From contig NJDH01000010.1 of NCBI GenBank assembly GCA_002254405.1, positions 1 through 32,416 of the forward strand: 32,416 nucleotides of DNA. Reading direction: 5' to 3'. Position 1 is the first letter of the stretch. The number at the start of each line of letters is the position of its first letter. Below, one piece after another: positions 14,308-24,129 of the stretch. Source of the stretch: Candidatus Altarchaeales archaeon ex4484_96. Lineage in GTDB: Archaea; Altiarchaeota; Altiarchaeia; IMC4; QMZM01. The position numbers and the translations under genes are program-made. The notes below the pieces were generated by a model. That model made no database searches, had not been told where the DNA came from, and worked only from the letters and a program-made list of their open reading frames with translations.

Positions 14308-14341
14308 TAATATAATTACGTTCTGTTTTATGGTGATTTCA

Positions 14342-16476
14342 ATGACATCCAAAGACGAAAAATTCATTCTATGGTTTGAGGAAACAGGTATAGAAGACGT
14401 TCCTCTTGTTGGAGGGAAAAACGCCTCCCTGGGGGAGATGATAAGGGAACTAGCCGGTAAGGGAATAAGCGTGCCCAACGGTTTTGCTATAACCGCAGAT
14501 GCATACAAGCATCTTCTAAAACACGGTGGCGTAGAGGATGAAATAAAGCAGATACTATCGGATCTGGACACACACAACATCCAGAACCTCCGGTCCAAGG
14601 GTAAGCAGATAAGGGAGTTAATAGAAAACATCGATTTCCCGGATGAGCTTACAGATGCCATAAAAAAGGCATACGATGAAATGGGCTCCCGCTTCGACTA
14701 CGGCTCCGACCCTCCGACAGAGCCATATCATACCGCGAGGATAAGGGATTCGGACACTTCGACGTATACCTGTCCATCGCCGTGCAAAAAATGGTGCGCT
14801 CTGATTCATCATCCTCGGGTGTCATGTTCTCGATAGATACCGAATCAGGTTTCAAAAACGCCGTGTTCATAACAGGCTCATATGGTCTGGGCGAAAACGT
14901 TGTTCAGGGAGCGGTCAACCCGGATGAATTTTATGTTTTCAAACCAACCCTCAAAGAAGGCTTTAAACCAATAATAGGGAAAAACCTGGGCAACAAAAAA
15001 ATAAAGATGATATACTCTGAGGGAGGGGATGAGAAAGTAAAAAATATCGACACCTCAAATGAAGAAAGAAAAAAGTTTTGCATAAACAACGAGGAGATAC
15101 TTAAGCTGGCTCACTGGGCCTGCATAATAGAAGACCACTACAGCCAGAAGGCTGGCTACTTCAAGCCCATGGACATCGAGTGGGCTAAAGACGGGGATGG
15201 AACCGATGTGGGCACCGGAGAGCTTTTTATTGTACAAGCTCGCCCGGAGACCGTTCACTCGCAAAAAGACATATCCATAGCAAGAAATTTCATCCTGAAA
15301 GAAACCTGCCATGCGGCCATAGTATCCCGGGAGCTTGGAATACCCTGTGTCATCGGAAGCGAGAACGCAACCGAAAAACTCACCTCAGGCATGGAGGTCA
15401 CGGTATCGTGTGCCGAAGGGGAAAAAGGCAGGGTATACGATGGACTGCTTGAATTCGAAATCGAGGAAATAAACCTCGATAAAATGCCTGAAACCAAAAC
15501 AAAGATTATGATGAACGTCGGTTTGCCCGATAAGGCATTTGTTGAGGGTCAGATACCCAACGACGGAGTTGGTTTAGCTAGAGAGGAATTCATAATAAAC
15601 TCCTACATAGGAATACACCCTCTTGCGCTCATACACTATGATGAACTGAAGGAGAAGGCTCAAAACGACGAAAAGATAAGGCAGGTAATAGAAAAAATAG
15701 ATGAGGCCACATCAGCCTATGAAAACAAGGTGGATTTTTTTATCGAGCAGCTGGCCCGGGGCATAAGCCGCATAGCAGCCGGTTTTTATCCTAATGATGT
15801 TATCGTCCGGTTATCTGATTTCAAATCCAACGAATACGCGAACCTAATCGGTGGATACCTCTATGAGCCAAGAGAGTCTAACCCGATGATTGGTTGGAGG
15901 GGAGCCTCAAGGTATTATGATAAGGGTTTCAAGCCCGCTTTTGGGCTGGAGTGCGCCGCCCTGCTGAAGGCCAGGGAAGAGATGGGGTTGAAAAACATCA
16001 AGGCCATGGTTCCATTCTGCCGGACCGTTGAGGAAGGGAAAAAGGTTGTCGATACTATGCGCGAGTTTGGTCTGGTTCAGGGTGAAGATAATCTAGAGGT
16101 CTACGTTATGTGTGAGATACCGTCTAATGTTATTTTAGCGGACCAGTTCGCCGAGATATTTGATGGATTCAGTATCGGAAGCAATGACCTGACACAGCTT
16201 GCACTGGGTTTAGACAGGGATTCCGAGCTTGTCGCAGAGATATATGATGAGAGAAACGATGCGGTCAAGAGGCTTATCAAGCAGGTCATCGAGGTTGCGA
16301 AAAAACGGGGTAGAAAGATTGGCATCTGCGGGCAGGCGCCCTCTGATTATGAGGAATTCGCCACGTTTCTGGTTGAATGCGGGATAGACAGTATCAGCCT
16401 GAACCCCGATACTGTTATTAAAACCAAGCTGAAGATAGCCGAGAAAGAGAGGGAGCTTGGTATTAAACCTGATTGA
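14342..16476 (+). pseudogene. ppsA: Phosphoenolpyruvate synthase, disrupted (probable missing segments near 14704-14720 and 15295-15308)
   Basis: N-terminal FEETGIEDVPLVGGKNASLGEM...; shifted frame resumes SDRAISYREDKGFGHFDVYLSIAVQKMVRSDSSSSGVMFSIDTESGF...; TCHAAIVSRELGIPCVIG retained; C-terminal NDGVGLAREEFIIN, GSNDLTQLALGLDRDS. Confidence 0.88.
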
Positions 16477-16540: not shown

Positions 16541-18721
16541 GTGCGCACAGTCCTGAAAAAAATAAGGAATAAAAGAGTAAAATCAGGTTCAAAACCCCAG
16601 ACAAAAGTCTTTATCTGCACCTGCAAAAACGAGATAATTCTACCAAACGAGCTTGATTTCGGTGAAGAAACCACAATCATAGAGGATATCAACTCAAAAG
16701 ACACGATAGAGAAAATAAAAAAAGCAGCATTAAACAGCAGAGTAATACTGGCCGGACCAAGCCCCAGGATAATGGAAAAACATTTCCCAGAAGGTAACAT
16801 TGAGTTCGTTAACATAAGAGAACACGTCTCATGGGTCGGGCATAAACCCGATAAGATCATAAGCCTGATTTCGGGGGCAATAGCTAAACAAAAAAACAGC
16901 GAAAACATTGAAGCCAAAAAAATCCCGATAAAAAACAAAAGCGCCCTTGTTATCGGTGGGGGAATAGCAGGGCTGGAATCAGCCAGACACATAGCCAAAG
17001 CAGGGATAAAAGTTTTTCTCATAGAGAAAGAACCTTTTCTTGGGGGTGTGGTCGGTAAACTCGATAGACTATACCCTGAAGGGACGCCAAACTCACACAC
17101 ACTATATCCGCTGATAAACGAGGTATTGGGAAATGAAAACATCAAGATATACACCAACTCCGAGATAGAGCAGATAGAGGGTGGATTAGGAGACTATAAG
17201 ATAATAATCAAAACAAAAGGCAACATCATAGAAGGCAAAAACCTGAGAAAATGCGAGGAAGCCTGCCCCATAAGCGTAGACGACGACGGGATTGAGAGAA
17301 AAGCATTCTATTACATGCCAACATACCCGGACAGCTACTGCATCGATTTCAGCTCATGCACCAAATGCGGCGAATGCGTTAAAATATGCCCCGAGATAAG
17401 CCTAGAGGAAAAAACCGTCAGCCTCAATGTCGGGGCCATAGTAGTAGCAACAGGGCTGAAAGATTATGACGCCTCATTGATAAAAGAATACGGGTACGGC
17501 AAATACGATAACGTACTTACAAAGCTCCAATTCGAGAGAAAATTCTCCAGCGGACTTATTAAACCAGAAAGCGTGGTAATAATCAACTGCGCAGGACAAA
17601 GAGACCAAAACTACCTGCCATACTGCAGCCGGGTCTGCTGCATGATAGGCTTGAAGGAAGCTAAATTGATTAAAGACGTGAGCCCTCAAACCGAGGTATA
17701 CGTTAACTACATCGACATGCGAAGCTATGGAAGCTTTGAGGAGCTATATAATACGGTAAGGGAACAATATGGTGTGAGATTCATACAGGGCAGACCATCC
17801 GAGATAATAAAAGACGACGACAAGCTATTAGTGCGCTCAGAGGACATACTTTTGGGTAAAAACATCGAAATCAAAACAGACTACGTGGTTTTGATGACCG
17901 GTTTCGTACCCGACACCGGATTGCTTGATAAGCTTGGCATACCAACAGAAAACGGATTCCCAACAGAATACGTTAACTCATCGCGCTCGGTTGACTCAAA
18001 CCCTAAAAGCGTTTTCATAGCGGGAGCAGCTGCTTATCCGAAAGGGGTCTCCGAGACAATAACGGATGCCAGGGAAGCGGCTCAGGGAGTTACGGAGTTG
18101 CTTATCCAAGAGCATGCAGTATTTAAGACACCGACTGCGATAATAAACAGCGACATCTGCGGGGAAATAGACTGCCGCATATGCCTGTCTGCGTGCCCCT
18201 ACGGAGCCGTTTACCTCAAAGATGAGAAGGTCAGCGTAAATCCAGAATTATGCATGGGATGCGGCATCTGCACGGCAACCTGTGCCGCTGGAGCAAACCA
18301 GCTTATAGGGTGTGAAGATAGGGGAATGCTCTCCCAGATAACGAACACAGTAGAAGAAGGAGACATCCTCGCGTTCCTATGTAAATGGAGCTCATATAAC
18401 GCAGCCGACAAAACAGGCTATGAGGGATTAAGCTATCCCGAAAACGTTAAAATAATCAGGATACCATGCACGGGCAGAGTAGACGCCCAAATGATACTTA
18501 AAGCATACAGCTCAGGAGCAAAAAGTGTGCTGATAGCAGGATGCCCCCCCGACGCATGCCACTATTTCACCGGCAACTTCAAGGCAAGGAAAAGGGTCAT
18601 AGCCCTGCGGGAGCTGATAGAGCAGTTCGGAATAAACCCCAAGAGCCTGAGAATAGAGTGGATAGGTAAAGAGGAATCCAAAAGGTTCGTTGACGTAGTA
18701 AATGAGTTAAACAATAAATAA
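16541..18721 (+). CDS. hdrA: HdrA-MvhD fusion protein (heterodisulfide reductase subunit A-like flavoprotein plus MvhD domain), cysteine-poor variant
   Basis: FAD motif ALVIGGGIAGLESARHIAKAGIKVFLIEKEPFLGG; INCAGQRDQNYLPYCSRVCCMIGLKEAKL; C-terminal ferredoxin CGEIDCRICLSACP and CMGCGICTATC; C-terminal MvhD ILAFLCKWSSYNAADKTG...IPCTGRVDAQMILKAYSSGAKSVLIAGCPPDACHYFTGNFKARKR; GTG start. Confidence 0.9.
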   Translation: MRTVLKKIRNKRVKSGSKPQTKVFICTCKNEIILPNELDFGEETTIIEDINSKDTIEKIKKAALNSRVILAGPSPRIMEKHFPEGNIEFVNIREHVSWVGHKPDKIISLISGAIAKQKNSENIEAKKIPIKNKSALVIGGGIAGLESARHIAKAGIKVFLIEKEPFLGGVVGKLDRLYPEGTPNSHTLYPLINEVLGNENIKIYTNSEIEQIEGGLGDYKIIIKTKGNIIEGKNLRKCEEACPISVDDDGIERKAFYYMPTYPDSYCIDFSSCTKCGECVKICPEISLEEKTVSLNVGAIVVATGLKDYDASLIKEYGYGKYDNVLTKLQFERKFSSGLIKPESVVIINCAGQRDQNYLPYCSRVCCMIGLKEAKLIKDVSPQTEVYVNYIDMRSYGSFEELYNTVREQYGVRFIQGRPSEIIKDDDKLLVRSEDILLGKNIEIKTDYVVLMTGFVPDTGLLDKLGIPTENGFPTEYVNSSRSVDSNPKSVFIAGAAAYPKGVSETITDAREAAQGVTELLIQEHAVFKTPTAIINSDICGEIDCRICLSACPYGAVYLKDEKVSVNPELCMGCGICTATCAAGANQLIGCEDRGMLSQITNTVEEGDILAFLCKWSSYNAADKTGYEGLSYPENVKIIRIPCTGRVDAQMILKAYSSGAKSVLIAGCPPDACHYFTGNFKARKRVIALRELIEQFGINPKSLRIEWIGKEESKRFVDVVNELNNK

Positions 18722-19700: not shown

Positions 19701-21190
19701 GCGAAAAAACAGCTAAAAACAATAAAAGAGAGATATTGATTTCCCCTGTAACAAGGCTTGAAGGCCATGCGAAAATAGACATATTCCTAAACGAGGAAGG
19801 TAACGTTCAGGACGCCTATTTCCAGGTAGTGGAGCTTCGGGGTTTCGAAAAATTCTGCCAGGGCAGGCCGGTTGAGGAGATGCCACGCATAACACCCCGA
19901 ATCTGCGGCGTCTGCCCCAACCCACATCATATGGCATCAGGCAAGGCCGTTGATATGGTATTCAGCGTTGAGGCAACCGAGACCGCTAAAAAACTACGTG
20001 AGATGAGCCTGTGCGCCCACTATATGCACAGCCACATAGCACACTTTTACGCTCTAGCCGGCCCGGATTTCGTTGTGGGACCCGATGCCGACCCCGCCCA
20101 GAGAAACATCATAGGAGTAATAGATAGAGTGGGGGTTGAAGCGGGTAAAAAGGTCATCCAGGCACGTGCTTATTCCCAGAAGATACAGGAGATAATAAGC
20201 GGGAGAGCCACACACCCCATAAACAACCTTCCTGGGGGCATAGCCAGAGGAATAAGCGCGGACCAGAGAAAAGAAATAGAGAACATGTCCGATTATCTTG
20301 TGGATTTCGGCAAATTCACTCTCGAAACATTTGAGGATATTGTCTTGAAAAACAAAAAATACGTTGAGCTTATCACCGGAGACTACTACAGGCATGAAAC
20401 CCATTACATGGGCACCGTGGATGAAAAAAACAACGTAGCATTCTATGAAGGCAATATCAGGGTGGTGGACCCTAAAGGACGCGAATACGTCAAATTTAAG
20501 GGAGTTGATTATTTAAAGCACATAGCCGAGCACGTTGAACCATGGAGTTACCTGAAATTCCCTTACCTCAAAAACAAGGGTTGGTCCGGGTTCGTTGATG
20601 GTGTGGATTCGGGCATATACCGGGTCGCACCCCTGGCAAGGCTTAATGTCGCAGACGGGATGGCAACACCCCTAGCGAACCAGGCGTACGAGAAAATGTA
20701 TGATGTTTTAGGGGGTAAGCCAGCGCATGAAACCCTTGCCATGAACTGGGCGAGGGTTATTGAGATAATGTATTCAGCCGAGAGAATAGCTGAGCTGATT
20801 TCTAAACCCGATATCACAAGCAGGGACGTGAGAAACATCCCCACCAGGGTAGCAGGCGAGGGGGTGGGGCACGTTGAAGCCCCCAGAGGGACATTATTTC
20901 ACCACTACTGGGCCGATGATGAAGGGATACTCACCAAAGCCAACATACTGGTGGCCACAGGAAACAACAACGCAGGAATCTGCCTATCCGTGAAAAAAGC
21001 AGCTGAAAAGCTGATAAAAAACTTCAAGGTAGACCAGGGCATACTCAACATGGTGGAGATGGCGTTCAGGGCATATGACCCCTGCTTTGCCTGCGCAACA
21101 CATACTCTACCAGGCAACCTGCCGCTTCAAGTTAAAGTATTTGATTCAGATAAGAAAGTAATCAAAAAAATAAGCAGATTTGAGCAATGA
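19697..21190 (+). CDS. mvhA: [NiFe] hydrogenase large subunit, MvhA-like
   Basis: N-terminal VTRLEGHAKIDI and RICGVCPNPHH (L1), C-terminal DPCFACATH (L2) followed by a 28-residue tail. Confidence 0.94.
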   Translation: MSEKTAKNNKREILISPVTRLEGHAKIDIFLNEEGNVQDAYFQVVELRGFEKFCQGRPVEEMPRITPRICGVCPNPHHMASGKAVDMVFSVEATETAKKLREMSLCAHYMHSHIAHFYALAGPDFVVGPDADPAQRNIIGVIDRVGVEAGKKVIQARAYSQKIQEIISGRATHPINNLPGGIARGISADQRKEIENMSDYLVDFGKFTLETFEDIVLKNKKYVELITGDYYRHETHYMGTVDEKNNVAFYEGNIRVVDPKGREYVKFKGVDYLKHIAEHVEPWSYLKFPYLKNKGWSGFVDGVDSGIYRVAPLARLNVADGMATPLANQAYEKMYDVLGGKPAHETLAMNWARVIEIMYSAERIAELISKPDITSRDVRNIPTRVAGEGVGHVEAPRGTLFHHYWADDEGILTKANILVATGNNNAGICLSVKKAAEKLIKNFKVDQGILNMVEMAFRAYDPCFACATHTLPGNLPLQVKVFDSDKKVIKKISRFEQ

Positions 21191-21639
21191 AAACTCTTGT
21201 GCTCGGAGTCGGAAACCCGATACTCGGGGATGACGGGGTGGGAATACACGTTATCAGAGAGTTGAGAAAAAAAATAAAGGATGTTGACTTCGACGAGGTC
21301 AGCGTATCGGGTCTGGAGCTTGTTGAGTTATTCAGGGGTTACGATAAAGTAATAATAGTGGATGCGATTAAGACAAAGCAAGGCATACCGGGCGAGATAC
21401 GCGAGTTAACGCTTGATAACATACCCACACTCCACGGCATCACACCCCATGATGTTGACTTCAAAACAGCCTTTGAGTACGGTAAAAGGTTCATCGATAA
21501 AATGCCCGATGAGGTCAGGATAATCGGTATCGAGGTCGATAAAATAAACGAGTTTGATGAGAAGCTGAGCGCGAAAGTCAGCGAATCGATTCCAAAGGCG
21601 GCTAAATTAATCAAGGAGGATTTGTTGAATGGATCTTAG
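21187..21639 (+). CDS. Hydrogenase maturation endopeptidase (FrcD/HyaD/HycI type)
   Basis: TLVLGVGNPILGDDGVGIHVIREL, VDAIKTKQGIPGEI, ITPHDVD; overlaps mvhA stop. Confidence 0.92.
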   Translation: MKTLVLGVGNPILGDDGVGIHVIRELRKKIKDVDFDEVSVSGLELVELFRGYDKVIIVDAIKTKQGIPGEIRELTLDNIPTLHGITPHDVDFKTAFEYGKRFIDKMPDEVRIIGIEVDKINEFDEKLSAKVSESIPKAAKLIKEDLLNGS

Positions 21640-22075
21640 GAAGGAGCTTGCCGAAGACGTTGACGGGAAAACCCTGAACTACTGCTTCAGCTGCGGCATG
21701 TGCACCGGAGGATGTCCATCAGCCATGATGACCGAAAGCGAATACAACCCTCGCAGGATACTGCATCGTGCCGTGATAGAGGGTAAACTCGAAGACGATA
21801 TCTGGCTTTGCACAAACTGCTATCTCTGCCAGGAGCGCTGCCCGACGAAAACCAAAGTAGCCGACCTCATAAGCCTTATGAGACGGGTTTACGTTAAGCA
21901 CAAGAGCATACCGGATTTCATCAAACCTCTTGTTGTCAACCTGGGAGCCTGCGGTTTCACCCAGCACATAGGCGAACTCGAGAACAAACGCAGAAAGAGG
22001 ATGAACCTGCCCGAGATAAAGCATACCAGCGAGATCAGGAAGATACTCAAGAAAACAGGTGGTCTCTATGAGTAA
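21629..22075 (+). CDS. hdrC: Heterodisulfide reductase subunit C
   Basis: CFSCGMCTGGCP and CTNCYLCQERCP 4Fe-4S motifs; N-P-R-R-I-L. Confidence 0.92.
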   Translation: MDLRKELAEDVDGKTLNYCFSCGMCTGGCPSAMMTESEYNPRRILHRAVIEGKLEDDIWLCTNCYLCQERCPTKTKVADLISLMRRVYVKHKSIPDFIKPLVVNLGACGFTQHIGELENKRRKRMNLPEIKHTSEIRKILKKTGGLYE

Positions 22076-22934
22076 CAGATACGCCTACTTTATCGGCTGC
22101 ACCACCCCTTTTCGGGAGTCCAACTATGACCTTTCCACCAGGAGAATAATGGAAAAGCTCGACATTGAGCTGGTGGAAATGGAAAAAGCCGGATGCTGCG
22201 GACTATACTATGAGCTGGTGAACGAATTAAGCTATCTTTGCATGGCTGCGAGAGTCATATCCATGGCAGAGGACGAGAAACTGGATTTAATGGTAATATG
22301 CAACGGATGCAACAGCTCCCTTTACCGGGCCAACAAGAAACTGCGTGAAAACCCAGAACTCAAGGAGGAAGTCAACAACGTACTCGCAGACATAGACCGG
22401 GAGTTTAAGGGAACAACAGAAGTAAAGCATTTCGTTAAGGTGCTCTGGGATGAGGTGGGGGTGGACAAGATAAAAGAAAAGGTTACCAACCTGCTTGACC
22501 TCAGGGTTGCAGTACACTACGGATGCCACCTGCTCAGACCGTCTGAGGAGATAAAGTTTGACAACCCCAAAGACCCTGTTAGCCTGGACGAACTTGTTGA
22601 GGCAACCGGAGCAAGCTCAATAGACTATCCGGAGAAAAGTCTTTGCTGCGGCGGATACGTTTTAGCCTCAAACCAGGATATAGCCTATAAGATGACAGGA
22701 CGTAAGCTGATAAACGTCAAAAAAGCAAAAGCAGATATTATGGTAACAGCATGCCCCTTCTGCAACGTCATGTATGATGCTAACCAGAGAGGCGTTGAAA
22801 AGGAGTTAGGGGAAAAAATCAACATCCCTGTACTGCATTATCCCCAGCTTCTGGGTTTAAGCATGGGATACACCCCAAGAGAGGTTGGGTTAGAGCAAAA
22901 CAGGGTCAGAGTCAACCCGAAAATATTCGAGTAA
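22068..22934 (+). CDS. hdrB: Heterodisulfide reductase subunit B with two CCG motifs
   Basis: YFIGCTTPFRESNYD, KAGCCGLYY, CNGCNSSL; HYGCHLLRP, SLCCGGY, ACPFCNVMYD. Confidence 0.93.
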   Translation: MSNRYAYFIGCTTPFRESNYDLSTRRIMEKLDIELVEMEKAGCCGLYYELVNELSYLCMAARVISMAEDEKLDLMVICNGCNSSLYRANKKLRENPELKEEVNNVLADIDREFKGTTEVKHFVKVLWDEVGVDKIKEKVTNLLDLRVAVHYGCHLLRPSEEIKFDNPKDPVSLDELVEATGASSIDYPEKSLCCGGYVLASNQDIAYKMTGRKLINVKKAKADIMVTACPFCNVMYDANQRGVEKELGEKINIPVLHYPQLLGLSMGYTPREVGLEQNRVRVNPKIFE

Positions 22935-22971
22935 CGGCATGTATTTAACCCTGGACTTGTTATTCTTAAAC

Positions 22972-24129
22972 ATGGCTGAGATACCCATAAGTCAGCTAGA
23001 CCGGTTAAGGGATTTAAAAAGATCCACAGGGGGTTTTTTAAACCTGAACCCGATACAGAGAGGAGGTATCTTAACACCCGAAGCGAGAAAGGCTGTTTTG
23101 GATTGGGCTGACGGCTACTCGATATGTGATTTTTGCGATGGAGTGCTCGAGTGCATTAAAAAGCCACCGGTGGATGATTTCGTGCACAAGACGATGACCT
23201 GCTTTATCGGGGCAGACCATGTGAGGCTGACCAACGGGGCCAGGGAAGCCATGTATATGGTAATGCACGCGGTATGTAAACCCGGGGATGTGCTGTTGCT
23301 TGACGCAAACTCCCACTATTCAGCCCATATAGCCGCTGAAAGGCATAATCTTTGGGTTTATGAGATACCCAACAACGGATACCCTGAATACAAAATAAAC
23401 GAAGAGCTTTATGCCGATAAAATCGAGGAAATCAAACGTAAAACAAAAAAAAATCCCGCGCTCGCTTTGATAACATACCCAGATGGGAACTACGGCAACC
23501 TGCCTGATGCAAGAAAGATAGCTAAAATATGCTCTGATTATGATGTTCCCCTGCTGGTTAACGCAGCTTATGCTATGGGTAGGATGCCTGTTAGCCTCAA
23601 ACATTTGAAGGCTGATTTTATTGTAGGCTCAGGCCATAAGTCTATGGCCTGCTCGGGGCCTATTGGGGTTCTGGGATTATCCGAAAGCCTAAGTGATGTG
23701 GTGCTTCGTAAATCCAAGAACTATAAAAACAAGGAGGTTGAGATGCTTGGCTGCGGCCCAAGGGGGCTGCCCCTGATAACATTGATGGCCAGTTTCCCGA
23801 AAGTATATGAGCGAGTCAAACACTGGGATGATGAGATAAAAAAAGCCAGATATTTCATAGACGAAATAGAGAAAATAGAGGGTATTAAACAGCTTGGGGT
23901 TAAGCCAACACAACATGACCTGAACTTCCTTGAGACCAAAGTATTTCACAGGATATCAGAAAAACACAAAAAAGGGGGGTTTTTCCTATATCGCGAGCTG
24001 AAGAAAAGAAACATCATAGGCGTGAAACCAGGCTTGAGCAAGAACTTCAAACTCAGTACCTACGGGTTTAAAAAGGATGAAATAAAAAAGATTATAGAAG
24101 CATTTAAGGAGATTGTGCAAATAAAATGA
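22972..24129 (+). CDS. pscS: O-phospho-L-seryl-tRNA:Cys-tRNA synthase (SepCysS)
   Basis: FLNLNPIQRGGILTPEARKAVLDWADGYSICDFC; PLP lysine context VGSGHKSMACSGPIGVLG; MLGCGPRGLPLITLMASFP. Confidence 0.93.
   Translation: MAEIPISQLDRLRDLKRSTGGFLNLNPIQRGGILTPEARKAVLDWADGYSICDFCDGVLECIKKPPVDDFVHKTMTCFIGADHVRLTNGAREAMYMVMHAVCKPGDVLLLDANSHYSAHIAAERHNLWVYEIPNNGYPEYKINEELYADKIEEIKRKTKKNPALALITYPDGNYGNLPDARKIAKICSDYDVPLLVNAAYAMGRMPVSLKHLKADFIVGSGHKSMACSGPIGVLGLSESLSDVVLRKSKNYKNKEVEMLGCGPRGLPLITLMASFPKVYERVKHWDDEIKKARYFIDEIEKIEGIKQLGVKPTQHDLNFLETKVFHRISEKHKKGGFFLYRELKKRNIIGVKPGLSKNFKLSTYGFKKDEIKKIIEAFKEIVQIK

Follow-up and report, generated by a model that had tools for sequence, protein, structure and literature searches.

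The HdrA-MvhD protein of a soluble [NiFe]-hydrogenase-HdrABC complex from Candidatus Altarchaeales archaeon ex4484_96 is assessed, with somewhat better than even probability, as a non-bifurcating enzyme that has no working ferredoxin route and has a lipoyl-protein disulfide as its likely substrate. Loss of the ferredoxin-arm wiring is well supported by the alignments, and we infer from the same changes that bifurcation was lost; the lipoyl substrate and the direction of electron flow are proposed.

Gene and operon

The window (the whole stretch of 32,416 nucleotides that was analysed, contig NJDH01000010.1) belongs to an Altiarchaeota genome of 0.92 Mb that is 60% complete. It contained an operon in the order HdrA-MvhD, MvhG, MvhA, HycI, HdrC and HdrB (Table 1). 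Profile searches with the fusion ORF showed matches to FlpD (9.1e-41, residues 609-725) and Pyr_redox_2 (3.1e-16), the match to HdrA from solved complexes was 5e-100, and the best NCBIfam match was HdrA2 with 530.6 bits against a cutoff of 1100. As in HdrA of soluble HdrABC, there is a TrxR-type FAD domain with C(V)GSRD...YCSxVCC, a C-terminal 2[4Fe-4S] ferredoxin and hdrB and hdrC partners; as in Type Ia HdrA, MvhD is fused C-terminally. An AF2 model from a deep alignment (pLDDT 88.4, pTM 0.84) matched HdrA of 8rvu and 5odc, and the eroded domains were still folded in it, with confidence of 83-90 across the inserted ferredoxin region. The sequence-only reading had not recognised that this gene, which extends to 18721, includes a fused MvhD, nor had it noted the clade-wide change of Cys197 to His or the lipoate link.

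Directly 3' of HdrB lies a gene for SepCysS (Sep-tRNA:Cys-tRNA synthase, 2e-167, window 22939-24129). The PPDK gene directly upstream of the operon (window 14330-16476) is split over two frames with profile segments missing; either it is a pseudogene or the assembly is faulty at this spot.

Table 1. Coordinates of the operon genes and of the HdrA-MvhD features in the window
Feature	Position	Strand	Basis
hdrA-mvhD fusion, 726 aa	16541..18721	+	ORF; HdrA = residues 1-605, MvhD/FlpD = 609-725
VFICTC, last two N-terminal-domain Cys (C26, C28)	16607..16624	+	alignment; four invariant in canonical HdrA
AGPSPR, Pro in place of the canonical A-C-S-P Cys (N4)	16751..16768	+	alignment
YPEGTPNSHTLYPLI, PNSH (His186) replaces canonical DCxxC, whose second Cys is Cys197	17072..17116	+	alignment
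Inserted ferredoxin domain, ligands of one cluster gone	17204..17425	+	alignment; AF2 model
RKCEEACP, first inserted motif, Cys a and b gone, c (C238) and d (C242) kept	17246..17269	+	alignment
CTKCGECVKICP, second inserted motif intact (C273, C276, C279, C283)	17354..17392	+	alignment
FER, Glu332 = M. thermolithotrophicus E356, FAD-tuning residue, kept	17528..17545	+	alignment
INC...YCSRVCC (C350, C362, C366, C367), cluster on HdrC path, and Lys372 = K409	17582..17665	+	invariant in 32/32 clade members
C-terminal ferredoxin domain, eight Cys kept (input clusters HA1/HA2)	18116..18340	+	alignment
MvhD domain, four Cys kept, Ser617 at second Cys of canonical CNWC	18365..18715	+	profile and alignment
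MvhG-type [NiFe] hydrogenase small subunit, 325 aa	18723..19700	+	Oxidored_q6; VhuG 2.6e-61
MvhA-type [NiFe] hydrogenase large subunit, 497 aa	19697..21190	+	VhuA 3.1e-123
HycI-type hydrogenase maturation protease	21187..21639	+	PF01750 2.8e-15
HdrC, eight Cys invariant among 14 homologues	21629..22075	+	TIGR03290 2.2e-25
HdrB, both five-Cys CCG motifs invariant among 14 homologues	22059..22934	+	CCG PF02754; TIGR03288 2.4e-96

Cluster ligands lost and kept

A sequence check located in the window every motif that the sequence-only reading had quoted. Compared with 24-25 canonical HdrA (methanogens, and paralogues from Altiarchaeota and WOR-3), the window protein was without two of the four invariant N-terminal Cys, both DCxxC Cys and two of the four Cys of the first inserted motif. 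It thus departs from canonical bifurcating HdrA in its N-terminal ligands (2/4 Cys), in having His for Cys197, and in not having two intact inserted clusters. The earlier statement that the motif after the FAD GG has no Cys was borne out, with PNSH standing for DCxxC. The Cys of NIREQC, which had also been counted as a lost ligand, was a mistaken case: the window reads NIREHVSWVG at 16811-16840, this Cys is absent in 5 of 24 canonical HdrA, and the solved M. marburgensis HdrA has REHDSWVH.

In 2[4Fe-4S] ferredoxins, each of the two motifs gives three Cys to one cluster and its last Cys to the second cluster. By this rule the missing Cys of the inserted domain are all ligands of a single cluster, so that RKCEEACP signifies that cluster I alone is lost. 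Four ligands remain for cluster II (C273, C276, C279 and C242), which, judged from these residues, probably survives. The description of the first inserted motif as reduced to RKCEEACP was therefore right as to the two missing Cys, but one inserted cluster probably remains.

The other ligands were complete, as had been claimed for the second inserted motif, INC...YCSRVCC (the motif itself spans 17582-17641) and both C-terminal clusters (motifs at 18152-18283). The TrxR-domain cluster (4 Cys), the C-terminal ferredoxin (8 Cys) and the FAD residues K409 and E356 were present in 32/32 clade members, the last two as K372 and E332 in the window protein; a FAD-tuning role of E356 has been described (PMC12054007). 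HdrB and HdrC likewise retain their motifs, with 10 and 8 Cys invariant over 14 operons. In total, 5 of 13 ferredoxin-arm Cys were gone in the window protein and 8 of 13 in the most degenerate relatives, against 0 of 30 in the HdrB direction (12 in HdrA, 8 in HdrC, 10 in HdrB); one-sided counts, which ignore shared descent, gave 0.0013 and 9e-6, respectively.

Orthologues and phylogeny

Seven orthologues from separately assembled MAGs of the same GTDB family were 62-74% identical, with the same architecture and graded motif loss. Every N-terminal and inserted Cys was kept in L013 and L014. Two inserted-motif Cys were gone in L001, L009, L010 and L015, as were two N-terminal Cys in the three of these that have an N-terminus (L015 ends at a contig edge). 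In L011 and L012 none of the four N-terminal Cys was left, and the second inserted motif was also missing its fourth Cys. Cluster II ligands were complete in all Altiarchaeota members.

The fusion gene had no internal stops and a dN far below the mostly saturated dS, in a conserved operon. These rates do not demonstrate relaxed selection on the eroded domains, as dS is mostly saturated and the N-terminal domain evolves fast in some intact members too. An origin of the losses in faulty sequencing or assembly, or in decay of the gene, to which the frame-broken PPDK gene upstream and the 60% completeness of the genome might point, has a negligible probability, since independent MAGs carry the same motifs and the orthologues, with their reduced or graded motifs, refute it; the absence of internal stops, the low dN and the otherwise perfect motifs also speak against it. 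The deletion error that the sequence-only reading had named as a possible refutation was thus dismissed.

A public genome scan showed relatives with 46-51% identity in WOR-3/Stahlbacteria and two other bacterial MAGs, and more were found among WOR-3 phylum genomes. P-x-S/G-H replaced DCxxC, and His replaced Cys197, in 32/32 clade members covering the region; the Cys197 position was Cys or Sec in 25/25 canonical HdrA. In canonical HdrA of WOR-3 and methanogens (L087-L090, L022, L023, L025), an in-frame TGA (selenocysteine) falls exactly at Cys197.

On a maximum-likelihood tree built without the trait columns, the Cys197-to-His change had a single origin, with clade support of 100/100. The homologues sharing TPNSH, for which a tree had been suggested, do form this one clade (32/32), but in most members the N-terminal cluster and the two inserted ones are still present. 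The tree places two losses of the first-motif Cys, and two of the N4 Cys, on one shared pair of branches. One leads to a clade of six Altiarchaeota members (support 100/99), in which the Cys were eroded, and the other to the bacterium G065, in which both domains were deleted. The G065 protein is without the N-terminal domain and the inserted ferredoxin but keeps K409/E356, and its operon (MvhG, MvhA, HycI, HdrC, HdrB) is intact. A tie between cluster loss and a missing Wood-Ljungdahl pathway was considered and gave no clean pattern, FwdA and CdhA being absent from both kinds of members.

Canonical HdrA copies in the same group

Canonical HdrA copies were found in related genomes. Two of them have every ligand: a canonical HdrA-MvhD in G011, which belongs to an operon for formylmethanofuran dehydrogenase (L116; FwdA, FwdC, FwdF-like), and a canonical HdrA in G001, whose neighbours are MvhD and NAD(P)H-dehydrogenase-like genes (L118). 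In the window's genome, a second HdrA occurs as a fragment, with a separate MvhD. It is suggestive that the HdrA copies plausibly serving low-potential chemistry keep the ferredoxin arm.

Such paralogues could supply the missing arm in a heterodimer, by analogy with a proposal for the tandem or fused HdrA of ANME, in which complementarity of Cys197 and the N-terminal ligands is known (PMC9012536). Canonical paralogues occur in G001, G002, G005 and G011, with a fragment in G000. This arrangement is very improbable here: both halves (Cys197 and the N-terminal ligands) were lost in the same HdrA copy and so are not complementary as in the ANME type, no second HdrA was found at E<=1e-60 in G004, G006 and G012, and the paralogues belong to other operons.

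Proposed electron path

In published models, the low-potential electron route of HdrA consists of HA3, HA5 and HA6 (PMC6019823); HA3 is taken here as the N-terminal cluster. Cys197 from the partner subunit completes the ligand set of the N-terminal cluster (PMC9012536), and electrons bound for ferredoxin or polyferredoxin leave at HA6 (PMC12350162). When the ligand map is laid on this published route, the losses fall exactly on the ferredoxin arm.

Electrons from H2 would then pass through MvhAG, MvhD and the C-terminal ferredoxin to FAD. Their one way out would be the TrxR-domain cluster, then HdrC and finally HdrB with its two non-cubane clusters, where a disulfide would be reduced without bifurcation. 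The disulfide would most likely be lipoamide on a GcvH/LbpA-like carrier, supplied by a dedicated LipS1/LipS2/LplA cluster; reverse flow, from the lipoyl protein to H2, is also possible. Lipoamide (about -0.29 V) is a much weaker oxidant than CoM-S-S-CoB (about -0.14 V). With such an acceptor, H2 oxidation leaves little energy for ferredoxin reduction, so that the arm could decay.

The enzyme may instead still bifurcate, with the FAD tuned canonically and the low-potential electron reaching ferredoxin via the surviving inserted cluster or via His186-ligated or other cofactors. We consider this unlikely. The retention of K372 and E332 (K409/E356), a pair proposed as a mark of bifurcating HdrA, in 32/32 members is the main point against lost bifurcation, yet G065 keeps both residues without either domain. 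The complete cluster II ligands of all Altiarchaeota members, the folded inserted domain in the AF2 model and the natural variation of the Cys197 site (Cys, Sec, His) also fit continued bifurcation. On the other side, some HA3 ligands are missing in the window clade, with zero N-terminal Cys in L011 and L012, and the N-terminal and inserted ligands were lost together twice. His186 is disfavoured as a simple stand-in ligand for Cys197, as it stays in members whose N-terminal cluster is absent. The earlier suggestion of a rewired or non-bifurcating path holds in that all lost ligands lie in the ferredoxin arm and none toward HdrB, and is tempered by the retained K409/E356 and the probable survival of one inserted cluster. 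Ferredoxin reduction may persist in the clade at large, as most bacterial members and two Altiarchaeota keep every remaining ferredoxin-arm ligand in spite of the Cys197-to-His change.

Lipoate genes and the HdrB substrate

Mcr was found in 0/13 family genomes, so CoM-S-S-CoB from methanogenesis is not an obvious substrate. A lipoyl-enzyme search that covered glycine decarboxylase found it in 0/13 of the same genomes, which rules out glycine cleavage there as the use of the GcvH-like protein. LipS2 was present in 6 of 8 family genomes with an HdrA of this clade and in 0 of 5 without (one-sided p=0.016, uncorrected for kinship; the G005 match is 1 bit under the cut-off).

In G008, the genes directly after HdrB are LipS1, LplA, an FAD protein, LplA, LipS2, LipS1, M23-like and GcvH-like. 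The window's genome has its lipoate cluster on a separate contig (C56). G004, G005, G006 and G012 contained the cluster whole or in part, LipS1 adjoins HdrB in G011, and lipoate genes were not found in G002. Of six bacterial loci, four have a lipoate ligase (LplA) gene just upstream of HdrC and two more have GcvH-like genes nearby, the one at L050 resting on a tblastn match. The lipoyl Lys is conserved in the archaeal GcvH-like proteins and in L052. Two ORFs without a clear family lie 3' of the GcvH-like gene in the window's own genome (L132:6893-8667).

The HdrABC-like complex of sulfur oxidisers is served by a GcvH-like LbpA that comes with LipS1/LipS2/sLpl genes (PMC6067878, PMC10332631). 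By this analogy, the GcvH-like (LbpA-like) protein is the best candidate for the HdrB substrate. That HdrB exchanges electrons with protein-bound lipoamide, making the complex a soluble H2:lipoyl-protein oxidoreductase, is put forward tentatively, at a little under an even chance. In S. ovata, for which an HdrABC-MvhD system was studied, H2-dependent methylene-THF reduction did not respond to dihydrolipoate or lipoate (PMC9430772); that system differs from the Altiarchaeota one, and the lipoate used there was free and not protein-bound. None of the papers searched reported a hydrogenase-HdrABC-lipoate link.

The WOR-3 operons L045, L047, L052 and L053 adjoin GlcD-type 2-hydroxyacid dehydrogenase genes, with a LarA-type nickel racemase gene in L052; an apparent glycine cleavage system beside WOR-3 operons was actually a regulator and GlcD-type genes. 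It is somewhat unlikely that the same non-bifurcating wiring serves another HdrB substrate, either a small-molecule or protein persulfide or disulfide or a GlcD-type partner, and that the lipoate genes serve something else. The lipoate genes adjoin the Hdr operon in some genomes only and are on another contig in the window's genome, where SepCysS and not lipoate genes stands 3' of HdrB. The GlcD-type neighbours of the closest bacterial loci, too, tell against a lipoyl partner, and persulfide chemistry has been suggested for Altiarchaeota Hdr (PMC8407392). The lipoyl partner is favoured over these substrates by the tracking of LipS2 with HdrA of this clade across the family, by the adjacent lipoate genes in two archaeal genomes and the lipoyl genes near bacterial loci, and by the absence of a glycine decarboxylase to use the GcvH-like protein.

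Comparison with known systems

Methanogen HdrABC-MvhAGD HdrA (M. thermolithotrophicus 5ODC; M. marburgensis 8RVU) shares with the window protein the fold, FAD residues, TrxR-domain cluster, C-terminal ferredoxin and MvhAG, HdrB and HdrC partners. The window protein differs from it in being without the N-terminal and one inserted cluster, in the change of Cys197 to His, in the fused MvhD and in its occurrence in organisms without Mcr. Type Ia HdrA (HdrA2, HdrA-MvhD fusion; PMC12054007, PMC5296606) has the same C-terminal MvhD fusion and single TrxR domain, whereas the window protein stands in a separate clade (100/100) and a hydrogenase operon and has eroded ferredoxin-arm ligands. In ANME, tandem or fused HdrA without Cys197 or the N-terminal domain show natural loss of the same ligands (PMC9012536), but the losses here are not complementary between copies and there is one HdrA per operon.

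The sHdr-LbpA system of sulfur oxidation (PMC6067878, PMC10332631; sHdrA 6TJR) likewise combines an HdrA without the ferredoxin arm, a GcvH-like lipoate-binding protein and LipS1/LipS2/LplA. The GcvH-like protein with LipS1/LipS2 and lipoate ligase was found on contig C56 and, adjacent to the Hdr genes, in G008. In contrast, the Altiarchaeota complex is hydrogenase-coupled, has a C-terminal ferredoxin and MvhD, and shows neither the hdrC1B1A-hyp-hdrC2B2 arrangement nor a minimal HdrA.

HdrA variants with missing clusters are already known; the clade, the stepwise loss of one arm and the hydrogenase-lipoate context appear undescribed so far. This one orthologous family is a natural series in which the ferredoxin arm alone is taken apart, one cluster after another, with the arm toward HdrB left perfect, and it makes testable which HdrA parts bifurcation needs and whether a change of acceptor leads to its loss. 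It also suggests which disulfide HdrB may act on in non-methanogens, a question raised by Hdr genes throughout the uncultivated archaea and bacteria, as well as a new role of lipoate together with hydrogenases. Annotations of operons as energy-conserving and bifurcating (e.g. WOR-3, PMC12542636) would need revision for the eroded members. If true, an H2:lipoyl-protein oxidoreductase would join methanogen-type Hdr to the sHdr-LbpA world, and the acceptor change would explain an arm decay that began with Cys197-to-His, went on to two lost clusters and ended with both domains deleted.

Further variation in the operon and the fused protein

In the Altiarchaeota genome G008, a [FeFe]-hydrogenase gene (group A, 605 aa) stands directly before HdrA-MvhD, in the place of MvhG/MvhA (L121:229-2046; L041, QMZG01000017.1); one hydrogenase type thus seems to have been exchanged for another in this archaeal Hdr operon. 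On a WOR-3 contig, the HdrB N-terminus is in-frame with the second half of HdrA-MvhD (L053:6561-8444), possibly through an assembly join. The first C-terminal ferredoxin motif (window 18152-18199) is C-x4-C-x2-C-x3-C in the Altiarchaeota members, L078, L086 and L098, and C-x2-C-x2-C-x3-C in WOR-3 and canonical HdrA. The second Cys of the MvhD CNWC motif (window 18374-18397) is Ser in most clade members and Cys in L086 and L098, and four MvhD Cys are left for the [2Fe-2S] cluster of the fused domain.
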